This document shows, one piece after another, positions 21,961 through 63,897 of a stretch of 64,000 bases of DNA; within the stretch, counting starts at the first letter, position 1; every line of letters starts with the position of its first letter. Under the pieces are notes generated by a model. That model had not been told where the DNA came from and made no database searches. It saw only the letters and a program-made list of their open reading frames with translations. The position numbers were made by a program, and so were the translations under genes. This stretch comes from Longimicrobium sp. Lineage in GTDB: Bacteria > Gemmatimonadota > Gemmatimonadetes > Longimicrobiales > Longimicrobiaceae. The DNA lies in the NCBI GenBank assembly GCA_036377595.1, contig DASUYB010000145.1, forward strand, positions 1-64,000, read 5' to 3'.

Positions 21961-22107
21961 GATGCGAGTGAACTCGCGGCTACAACCACACCCAGTCCGC
22001 CTTCGCGGACTTCATTTCGTTGCGTGCACCGTCATCGCGTCGGAACCGTGGCCCGTAGTCCGCGAAGGCGGACTTCGTGTAGTTGTAGCCGCGACTTCAG
22101 TCGCATC
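21961..22107. repeat. Inverted repeat, AGTCCGC...TAGCCGCGACTTCAG family, full unit
   Basis: GATGCGAGTGAACTCGCGGC with CAGTCCGCCTTCGCGGACT forms the left half. The right half is its near-perfect inverse (AGTCCGCGAAGGCGGACT then GTAGCCGCGACTTCAGTCGC). A nested short palindrome TCCGCCTTCGCGGA sits in each half. Related copies: 26675, 34770, 38850, 49397. The gap 21856-22191 contains this unit and the terminator. Confidence 0.8.
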
Positions 22108-26643: not shown

Positions 26644-26674
26644 GTGGTTGCGGTGGATCGTCTTGAGTGGATGG

Positions 26675-26880
26675 GGCGGCTGAAGCCGCGGCAACAACCA
26701 CACGAAGTCCGCCTGCGCGGACTACGGCCTGTGGTGTGGGCGAGGTTTCGGTGCGCGCGACAGGCATCCGTCCGCCGAGACTCGTCGAATGCTGGCCGCG
26801 CGCTTGAAAGCCCCGGCTGCGCCGACGCCGGTAGTCCGCGAAGGCGGACTTCGTGTCGTTGTTGCCGCGAATTTATTCGC
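26675..26880. repeat. Inverted repeat, AGTCCGC family, full unit
   Basis: GCGGCTGAAGCCGCGGCAAC with GAAGTCCGCCTGCGCGGACT forms the left half, and AGTCCGCGAAGGCGGACTTC with GTTGTTGCCGCGAATTTATT the right half. It accounts for most of the 381-nt space between ispF and the peptide gene. The remainder (26881-27024) carries the peptide gene leader, with no clear promoter hexamers. Confidence 0.75.
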
Positions 26881-27024
26881 CCTCCCAACCCGCCAGCAAC
26901 CACGCAGCATGATCGTCACGACGTGAGTCATCGCCCTGAAAAGATCCTTGTGTGATGAGGAACGCACGCCAAGCTTGCAAGGGATCGCGCGCGGTCCCTC
27001 TCCCCCCTGCCGGAGGACGTCGCC

Positions 27025-27300
27025 ATGCAACGCAGGAAGCTGCTGCTCGAAACGCTCGAGGTCGATTCGTTCGTGGTCGGGCCGGCGTCGCCGCGGATCG
27101 GCACCGTGCGGGCCTTCGCCGACGCGATCGCCCTGGATGGCGACTTCGCCGACCAGCCGGTCGCGGAGCCGAAGTACACGGAGGAGGGCTATCCCGCCCA
27201 CACCTGCACCGGCCCGATCGCGTGCACCCTCCCCGGCGTGTGCACCTGCCTGGTATCCTGCGAACCTGTGCCCTGCACCACCGACGCGCGCTGCGTCTGA
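27025..27300 (+). CDS. Lanthipeptide-like (pinensin-type leader) Cys/Thr-rich precursor peptide
   Basis: The 91-residue product is preceded by GGAGGA 7 nt before the ATG. The N-terminal half looks like a leader: LLLETLEVDSFVV followed by GTVRAFADA, resembling the L-x-V-x-SF type leaders I know from pinensin-like precursors of Bacteroidota and Longimicrobium. Residues 59-91 form a core with seven Cys (61, 67, 73, 75, 79, 84, 90) among Thr, Ser and Pro (HTCTGPIACTLPGVCTCLV). There is no signal peptide. It is its own transcription unit, with a terminator 27 nt downstream. No LanB, LanC or transporter lies next to it. The only lanthionine-type enzyme in the window is 34 kb away. RiPP status is inferred from composition and leader. 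Confidence 0.72.
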   Translation: MQRRKLLLETLEVDSFVVGPASPRIGTVRAFADAIALDGDFADQPVAEPKYTEEGYPAHTCTGPIACTLPGVCTCLVSCEPVPCTTDARCV

Positions 27301-27326
27301 CGAAGCTGACCCGAGCGTCATCCATC

Positions 27327-27356
27327 GCGCGGCACCCTGGAGACGGGGTGCCGCGC
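27327..27356 (+). terminator. Terminator of the precursor-peptide gene
   Basis: A 10-bp perfect stem GCGCGGCACC / GGTGCCGCGC with a 10-nt loop, followed by GTATTTGC. Confidence 0.6.
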
Positions 27357-27369
27357 GTATTTGCATCTC

Positions 27370-61179: not shown

Positions 61180-63897
61180 ATGAGAAGCGACCAGCCCCAG
61201 TTCTTCTTCGCGCTGCTCGACGCGGAGTTCTTCGAGAGCTTCGACCGCTACCGCCCGGGCGACGAGTACGAGCGGGTCGTCCGCGAGCACCTGGACGACG
61301 GCTGGGTGATCGCCCGCGGCGGGTTCTGGTCGAACTGCCAGCCCATCGGCGCCGAGTACCGGACGCAGGGGTGGAAGATCCACCTCTCCGCCGCCACGGA
61401 GACCGCGCCCGAGGTGCTGGCGCGCGCGCTTCCCGTGCTGGCCGAGGCGCGCGTGCCGTTCAAGTTCTGCTCCGACGCGCGGATGCTGGAGCTCTCCACC
61501 AGCAAGAACTGGCCGCGCACCGGGGCGGCCAAGTTCATCACCGTCTATCCCGAGTCCGACGAAGACTTCCCCGCGCTGGCCGCCCGGCTGCACGAGGCCA
61601 CGGAAGACCTGCGCGGGCCGTACATCCTCTCCGACCGGTCGTATCCCGGCAGCCGCGTGGTCTTCTACCGCTACGGCGAGCACCGCGGCGTCCCCTATCT
61701 CGACGCCGAGGGGCACCAGCACCGCGCCATCCTCACCCCCGAGGGCGAGCGCTACTCCGACCAGCGGCAGGCCATCTACCGCGTCCCGCCGTGGGTCGCC
61801 GACCCGTTCGGCGCGCCGTCGAAGGAGCGGCGACAGGAGGTGTGGCTGCGCGACCGCTACCGCGTGACCGGCGCGCTGCGCTACTCGAGCGTGGGCGGGA
61901 TCTACCTGGCCGACGACACGGAGACGGGCGAGAAGGTGGTGATCCGCGAGGCGCGCCCGCTCCTCAGCCAGCGCGGCGACGCCACCGACGCGCTGGGGCT
62001 GCTGGAGAAGGAGGCGCGCATCCTCCGCAGGCTCGGCCCCACCGGGCTCCTCCCCCGCTTCGTCGACCTGTTCCAGGAGTGGGAGCACAGGTTCCTGGTG
62101 CAGGAGCGGCTGCAGGCCGAGTCGCTGTGGGGATACGCGATCGGCTTCCTGTACGCCGAAGATCGCGACCGCACCCCGGCCGAGGCGTTCGGGATGCTGC
62201 GCGACACGCTGCGCGGGCTGATCGAGGGGCTGCGCACGATCCACGCGCACGGCGTGGTGCTGCGCGACATGACCAAGACCAACGTCTTCATCACCCCCGA
62301 GGGGAAGCCAAAGTTCATCGACTTCGAGCTGGCGTACGAGACCGACCGCGACGACCCGCCGCTCCCCGGGTGGACGGTGGGCTACGCCTCGCCCGACCAG
62401 CTGGCCAACCAGCGCCCGCGCCCCGAGGACGACTACTACGCGCTGGGCTCGCTCCTCCTCGACATGCTGGCCTTCACCGCCTCGGGGCTGCCGCTGAACC
62501 GCGGCGGGATCCTGCAGGCGCTGGAGATGGTGCTGCGCGAGCAGAGGCTGCCCCCGGTGCTGAAGGACGTGGTGGTCGGCCTCACCGACCCCGATCCCGC
62601 GCGCCGCTGGGGGCCGGACCGGGTGCTTGCCACGCTCGACGCGGTGCGGATGCCCGCGAGCCGGCCGCGCCCCGCCTCCGCGCACCCCGCGCCGCCGCCG
62701 CGCCGCGCGCCATCCCCCGCGCACGTGCGGGCCATCGAGGAGACGGTCGCCGGCGTCGCACGCTACATCGAGGCCAGGCTCGACTTCCGCCGCGGCGACC
62801 GGCTGTGGCCCGCGTCGGGCGAGCTCTTCGTCACCAACCCCGTCTCCCTGCAGCACGGCGCCGCCGGCACCGCCGCCTTCCTCCTGCGCGCCACCGGCCG
62901 CGTCCCCGAGGGCGTGCTGGACTGGATCGTGGCCCGCGCGCGCCCGAAGACCTGTCCCCCCGGGCTGTGGGCGGGGCTGGCGGGGGTGGCCACCTTCCTC
63001 TTCGACGCGGGGAGGGACGAGGACGCGAAAGCGCTGCTGGAGGCGTCGCGCGGGTCGCCGCTCATCCACGAGCAGCCGGGGCTCTACTACGGCGCGGCGG
63101 GATGGGGATTGGCCAACCTGTACGCCTGGCTGCGCACGGGTGAGGAGGCGTGGCTCGACGAGGCGCTGGAGACGGGCGAGCGGTTGGTGGAGTCCGCCCG
63201 CGAGGTGCCCGCGGGGGTGTGCTGGGACTTCAACGGCGTGGCGCACCTGGGCCTCGGCTACGGGACCAGCGGCGTGTGCCTGTTCCTGACCTCGCTGAAC
63301 GCCGCGGCGCCCGGCTTCCGCTTCCTGGACGCGGCCGAGAAGGGGCTGGACTTCGAGATCTCCGAGGTCCGCATGGTGGCGGGGCGGCCCTTCTGGTTCC
63401 CCAACGTCGACGCGCGCGTGGACGCGCCCAAGAGCCCGCACATGCGCTTCGGCTCGGCGGGCGTGGGCAGCGCGCTGCTGCGCTTCTGGGCGGCCACCGG
63501 CGAGCCGCGCTTCCGCCGCTGGGCCGACGCCTGCGCCTGGGCCACCTGCGACCGGCTGACCAACAAGACGTGGCACGACTACGGCCTGGCGGGCTACATC
63601 GAGTACCTGCTCGACATGCACCGCTTCGCCGGCGGCGAGCGCTACCTCCACAACGCCTTCCGCGTGGCCGAGGCGCTCCTGCCGCACCGCATCGCCCGCC
63701 CCGAAGGGATCGCCTTCGCGGGGCCGGAGCTGATGCGCATCTCCTGCGACTTCGGCATGGGCGCGGCGGGGATCGGCACGGTGCTGCACCGGCTGCTGAA
63801 CCCCGCCGCGCCGCGTGCCTTCTTCCCCGACGAGCTCCTCCTGGCCGACGCCGCCGTGGCCGCGCCCGTGCGCCGCGAGCCGGCGCTGGCGGGATGA
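61180..63897 (+). CDS. Class III lanthionine synthetase (LanKC-like)
   Basis: The 905-residue protein (start MRSDQPQFFFALLD at 61180; a 49-residue upstream extension is Arg/Pro-rich) has three parts. Residues 1-220 form the lyase-like N-terminal domain with GWKIHLSAATETAPEVLARA, VPFKFCSDARMLELSTSKNW and GPYILSDRSYPGSRVVFYRY, diagnostic of LanKC. Residues about 227-500 form a Ser/Thr kinase (SSVGGIYLADDTETGEKVVI, catalytic VLRDMTKTNV with Asp-363/Asn-368, DFE rather than DFG at 381). The rest is a LanC-like cyclase (SLQHGAAGTAAFLL, AHLGLGYGTSGV) in which the Zn Cys/Cys/His motifs WCxG and CHG are absent. Class III enzymes phosphorylate and dehydrate Ser/Thr and cyclise. No precursor gene is adjacent. 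Confidence 0.88.
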   Translation: MRSDQPQFFFALLDAEFFESFDRYRPGDEYERVVREHLDDGWVIARGGFWSNCQPIGAEYRTQGWKIHLSAATETAPEVLARALPVLAEARVPFKFCSDARMLELSTSKNWPRTGAAKFITVYPESDEDFPALAARLHEATEDLRGPYILSDRSYPGSRVVFYRYGEHRGVPYLDAEGHQHRAILTPEGERYSDQRQAIYRVPPWVADPFGAPSKERRQEVWLRDRYRVTGALRYSSVGGIYLADDTETGEKVVIREARPLLSQRGDATDALGLLEKEARILRRLGPTGLLPRFVDLFQEWEHRFLVQERLQAESLWGYAIGFLYAEDRDRTPAEAFGMLRDTLRGLIEGLRTIHAHGVVLRDMTKTNVFITPEGKPKFIDFELAYETDRDDPPLPGWTVGYASPDQLANQRPRPEDDYYALGSLLLDMLAFTASGLPLNRGGILQALEMVLREQRLPPVLKDVVVGLTDPDPARRWGPDRVLATLDAVRMPASRPRPASAHPAPPPRRAPSPAHVRAIEETVAGVARYIEARLDFRRGDRLWPASGELFVTNPVSLQHGAAGTAAFLLRATGRVPEGVLDWIVARARPKTCPPGLWAGLAGVATFLFDAGRDEDAKALLEASRGSPLIHEQPGLYYGAAGWGLANLYAWLRTGEEAWLDEALETGERLVESAREVPAGVCWDFNGVAHLGLGYGTSGVCLFLTSLNAAAPGFRFLDAAEKGLDFEISEVRMVAGRPFWFPNVDARVDAPKSPHMRFGSAGVGSALLRFWAATGEPRFRRWADACAWATCDRLTNKTWHDYGLAGYIEYLLDMHRFAGGERYLHNAFRVAEALLPHRIARPEGIAFAGPELMRISCDFGMGAAGIGTVLHRLLNPAAPRAFFPDELLLADAAVAAPVRREPALAG

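Follow-up and report, generated by a model that had tools for sequence, protein, structure and literature searches.

Massive one-enzyme, many-substrates biosynthesis has been documented in marine cyanobacteria, for class II synthetases; its purpose there is unsettled. Prochlorosin-type precursors number 29, 79 to 83 or at most 143 per strain (PMC10783134). A split LanB has been described for pinensin, and LanM-like LanC proteins have been described for the pinensin family (PMC7268733). For Gemmatimonadota, the genome note on Longimicrobium terrae lists three lanthipeptide clusters only, and no report of a large precursor expansion in this phylum was found in the open-access literature.

Here we analyzed a stretch of 64,000 nucleotides of Longimicrobium sp. 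DNA (the window), the 7.2-Mb genome from which it comes and the genomes of relatives. From sequence comparisons, we put at roughly three in four the probability that one small gene in the window encodes a single precursor of a genome-wide, pinensin-type class I lanthipeptide system whose members are modified in trans.

The window gene and its surroundings

The features of the gene are collected in Table 1. GC contents at the three codon positions of the open reading frame (ORF) are 0.65, 0.54 and 0.90. Translation confirmed the leader half and the 33-residue core with seven Cys that had been described previously; the C-terminal 33 residues are HTCTGPIACTLPGVCTCLVSCEPVPCTTDARCV and also hold seven Ser/Thr. 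When a leader profile lacking any row from the own genome was run against all six frames of the window, this ORF was the sole match (E = 5.5e-8). Several overlapping, overly long ORFs of the window were dismissed as wrong frames in GC-rich DNA. The only Pfam match of the ORF, to Planc_extracel (E = 0.039, below the cut-off and touching the leader), was judged to be due to chance. The preliminary description had also noted a ribosome binding site and a clean terminator. The ribosome binding site stands, while the terminator does so only in part: the downstream hairpin is perfect, but it has a weak T tract and went unscored in a terminator scan.

Table 1. Features of the precursor gene and its flanks, in window coordinates
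Feature	Position	Strand	Basis
Precursor peptide gene, 91 aa, stop included	27025..27300	+	ORF; GC3 0.90; ATG after GGAGG; leader profile E 5.5e-8
Conserved leader	27025..27120	+	25 aligned family leaders; 200 or more copies in the genome
Variable spacer, leader to Cys-rich part	27121..27198	+	sequence; no GG site; unconserved in other members
Putative core, 33 residues, 7 Cys and 7 Ser/Thr	27199..27297	+	translation
Shine-Dalgarno GGAGG	27012..27016	+	sequence; 8 bases 5' of ATG
Perfect 12-bp GC-rich hairpin, possible terminator, weak T tract	27326..27357	+	

The gene is flanked by ispF (minus strand) and a thiolase gene (acetyl-CoA C-acetyltransferase; plus strand), and, as stated previously, no modification enzyme adjoins it. 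Upstream of the ORF, at 26674-26882, lies a 97-nt imperfect inverted repeat, apparently an REP-like interspersed element. The core of this repeat, GTAGTCCGC/GCGGACTT, is found again near 22005-22075, and parts of the repeat have matches in the ispF-thiolase region in several relatives.

In one relative, G003, ispF and the thiolase gene are kept (90% and 83% identity), and the gap between them is about 320 bases without a precursor versus 763 bases in the window; the window gene was therefore either gained in one of the two lineages or lost from the other. A lone gene in an interval that is empty in G003 could be a stranded, nonfunctional paralog left behind by family turnover. We regard this as very unlikely, as the ORF is intact with a GC3 of 0.90, a good Shine-Dalgarno site, a conserved leader and a Cys-rich core, and 54 of the 87 groups of family members in the genome likewise consist of one gene.

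The leader family within the genome

A protein search within the own genome returned a string of weak matches on other contigs. On inspection, these shared the same N-terminal half and had differing Cys-rich second halves. Alignment of 25 such family leaders gave the consensus M-x-K-L-x-L-x-L-D-x-L-x-V-E/D-S-F-x-T...GTVRA, and with a profile built from them all 150 candidates scored in the genome had E < 1e-6, setting a first lower bound of 150. Within 865 kb of own-genome DNA, 185 members scored at least 20 bits, and no two were alike. Reversed or Markov versions of the same 865 kb yielded no leader-profile matches at this threshold, and a profile made from other genomes' rows only still recovered 181 own-genome members at 20 bits or more. 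At the DNA level, the pattern for LxV[DE]SF had 98 matches in the whole genome and its reverse had none; about 79 of the 98 sites fell within the 865 kb, and the remaining sites added 15 members. The copy number, which rests on the profile, the DNA pattern and targeted stretches, is at least 200 verified precursors, and simple scaling gives an estimate of about 230. The first ~31 residues of the window ORF are thus common to at least 200 ORFs, whose variable second halves each hold two or more Cys.

The composition of the 185 members differs sharply between their two halves. Cys accounts for 0.2% of leader residues versus 16.1% of core residues, and Thr, at 13.3%, is the second commonest core residue. 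All members have at least two Cys and 181 have at least three, while the leader profile itself contains no Cys; in every member a Ser or Thr sits a few residues before a Cys. The median member is 72 aa long with six Cys. A Shine-Dalgarno-like site precedes 170 of the 185, and upstream of first genes k-mer enrichment gave weak signals at most for a shared promoter motif besides that site. The members form 87 groups, and the largest array comprises 21 genes on an 11.7-kb contig.

Two members (G000:C83:17564 and 18072; L173) have 21 and 25 Cys, some of them in runs such as CCCCCCPCCC, and are unlike ordinary lanthipeptide cores. In another (G000:C6:8021; L213), the core is a block like GAGCDKVSAGPVTQCGGVETC repeated several times.

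The family is reached by the leader profile alone. A related-locus search with the single window peptide as the query gave no match because the cores are too variable, and tblastn against plasmids likewise gave none. The leader had been called pinensin-like, which fits some paralogs better than the window ORF: paralogs in the own genome match the NCBIfam model NF038180 (leader_pinensin) with up to 39 to 41 bits, with 11 matches at E ≤ 0.001, but the window ORF gave no match at the 24-bit cut-off. Because only some paralogs pass leader_pinensin, the window ORF is termed pinensin-like rather than a member of the model.

Enzyme sets and their co-occurrence with the precursors

Two PF14028 proteins are encoded in the genome, each next to a PF04738 protein. 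The genome also encodes three LanC-domain proteins, namely two stand-alone LanCs (PF05147) and one LanKC. Two complete split class I sets, each with a LanB glutamylation part, a separate elimination part and a LanC, are located on contigs C103 and C98. The genome search proposed in the preliminary description, for copies with the same leader and for LanB/LanC, has thus returned both, and the gene can no longer be called an orphan. On C103, LanB-N, LanB-C and LanC are followed in turn by nine or more precursors, an ABC exporter that has no C39 domain, and an HlyD adaptor; on C98, the second set is accompanied by an ABC exporter of its own. The C98 LanB domain match (hmmscan) was obtained from an ORF trimmed to an internal ATG. 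LanC zinc motifs of the form WCHG/LCHG were seen. The C103 LanC has CHG, and its best NCBIfam and PDB matches are the LanM C-terminus and LicM2, respectively. The stand-alone LanC on C98 (G000:C98 L132:4743-5978) has the zinc motif CCG, as in ProcM-like enzymes, where the motif is a proposed contributor to promiscuity (PMC10783134).

Neither split set adjoins the window ORF, and 12 of the 185 precursors (about 7%) lie near either set. Because the other ~93% are remote from any enzyme, the pairing of enzymes and precursors rests on leader homology and co-occurrence. Among 21 family genomes, leader ORFs were found in 10 of 10 with PF04738 (LanB) and in 0 of 11 without it (p = 2.8e-6, ignoring phylogeny, for related genomes that include some incomplete drafts). 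Precursor counts in the 10 LanB-bearing genomes ranged from 1 to at least 150. G001 and G003 each have at least 130 leader-bearing ORFs (130 of 130 scored in each), and G009, G014 and G015 have 82, 72 and 52, respectively. The one precursor of G007 lies inside its LanB/LanC locus, and the closest relative of the window ORF outside its own genome lies in the LanB/LanC cluster of G003. LanC alone did not track the precursors: genomes G004, G005 and G006 lack precursors despite a LANC match.

In a scan of named genomes, leaders of this type stood next to an elimination protein in the Gemmatimonadota MAG RYN_364, in Acidobacteriota and in Bacteroidota; several of the Bacteroidota leaders end in GG. 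In the Acidobacteriota MAG OFTM328 (L252, L253), where the neighbor of this leader type is likewise a LanB elimination protein, a CGST repeat forms one of the cores.

The LanKC that the preliminary description had placed 34 kb away is indeed at 61180-63897 of the window. It is a class III protein with a RamC-type N-terminus, a kinase domain and a LanC domain. As the sole lanthionine synthetase in the window, and one that exceeds the NCBIfam LanKC cut-off, it might be expected to modify the window peptide. The distribution across genomes makes this extremely unlikely, and LanKC was rejected as the partner on that basis: a weak LanKC-like LANC match is missing in the precursor-rich G001 and G009 and present in the precursor-free G005. 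Moreover, the leader is common to precursors beside split LanB/LanC sets and not to class III precursors. The earlier preference for a remote enzyme over LanKC is therefore upheld, now with two remote split sets as candidates.

The family could instead consist of unmodified Cys-rich proteins, small and either secreted or cytoplasmic, which form disulfides or bind metal, as Cys counts of up to 25 and runs of consecutive Cys might suggest. Strict co-occurrence and adjacency with LanB argue against this, as does a leader that is kept while the cores vary widely and are rich in Thr. A match to a known metal-binding family, which the preliminary description had named as evidence against a lanthipeptide, was found for the window ORF in neither Pfam nor NCBIfam, and a single-sequence structure model made with no alignment, which is weak evidence, had a mean pLDDT of 50 and no confident fold. 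We consider an unmodified family unlikely.

PF04738 proteins have several known chemistries. The leader might thus recruit LanB homologs for tRNA-dependent amino acid ligation, as for pearlins, or for dehydration without full cyclization. A partnerless LanB-N-like protein in the genome is compatible with such chemistry, but both main LanB sets include a LanC with a zinc motif as well as a separate elimination protein (PF14028/TIGR03891), neither of which peptide ligases need, and the likelihood of this alternative is small. The partnerless protein (G000:C1 L136:4644-7271) is solitary, with neither an elimination protein nor a LanC, and neighbors an exporter of the cyclic-peptide type; it possibly carries out a different tRNA-dependent chemistry.

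Taken together, the leader family, the split LanB/LanC sets and their co-occurrence support the reading of the window gene as encoding a lanthipeptide-like precursor. In the system that we propose, the shared leader, KLxLxxLxVxSF...GTVxA, would be read by the split dehydratase; the large LanB-N would glutamylate Ser and Thr residues of the core, the separate LanB-C would eliminate glutamate, and LanC would add Cys thiols to the dehydro residues, giving (methyl)lanthionine rings. The C103 and C98 sets would modify 200 or more substrates in trans, the majority encoded at a distance as single or tandem genes, and probably all of these precursors are modified by these two remote lanthionine-forming sets. 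The products probably leave the cell through the ABC exporter with the HlyD adaptor encoded next to the C103 set. The leader would be removed by a protease; no cleavage motif was found in the window precursor, which lacks GG, nor was a protease for leader removal, the C103 exporter having no C39 domain. The window peptide itself would be expressed, recognized, dehydrated, cyclized and exported, with a C103-type set as the favored enzyme. The variable cores suggest many products, perhaps acting in competition or signaling.

Comparison with known lanthipeptide systems

The preliminary description had suggested a dispersed-substrate RiPP system, which agrees with our data, although it did not foresee the scale. 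The arrangement comprises at least 200 precursors in 87 groups, mostly remote from the two enzyme sets. Because they are encoded far from the enzymes, the majority of these precursors escape cluster-based genome mining. We favor, if by a modest margin over even odds, the view that some Gemmatimonadota hold the largest single-genome lanthipeptide repertoire known, with more than 200 single-gene or tandem precursor cassettes turning over between housekeeping genes and all relying on one or two promiscuous class I split LanB/LanC sets that act in trans, as an independently evolved class I counterpart of the prochlorosins. If so, this larger class I system in a soil phylum would mean that the one-enzyme, many-substrates mode arose twice, and it would open a second setting in which to study the purpose of such libraries. 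Hundreds of natural substrates would also be at hand for exploring the tolerance of a tRNA-dependent dehydratase for variable cores.

Of class III LanKC systems, a LanKC is present in the same window, but their leader and core types are other than those found here, and there is no co-occurrence with these precursors. With the pinensins, class I products of Bacteroidota, the present system has in common the KLxLxxLxVxSF leader type, a split LanB with a separate elimination protein (here on C103 and C98; PMC7268733 for pinensin) and a stand-alone LanC close to LanM C-termini, here a PF05147 protein with the LanM and LicM2 matches noted for C103. A class I assignment of the precursors is consistent with their leader and Ser/Thr-Cys cores, with leader homology and co-occurrence as the link to LanB/LanC. 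The pinensins differ in phylum; here the leader is followed by GTVxA/G and not GG, the cores are richer in Cys, and at least 200 dispersed precursors occur per genome.

In organization, the system resembles the prochlorosins and synechococsins (ProcA/SyncA with ProcM/SyncM), which likewise combine a conserved leader with highly variable cores and have scattered single or tandem substrates served by few enzymes in trans. Prochlorosins depend on a class II LanM, a Nif11-type leader and GG cleavage, whereas the leader here is different and the enzymes are a class I split LanB and a LanC. With at least 200 precursors, the repertoire in this genome exceeds the biggest published one found, which has 143 (PMC10783134).
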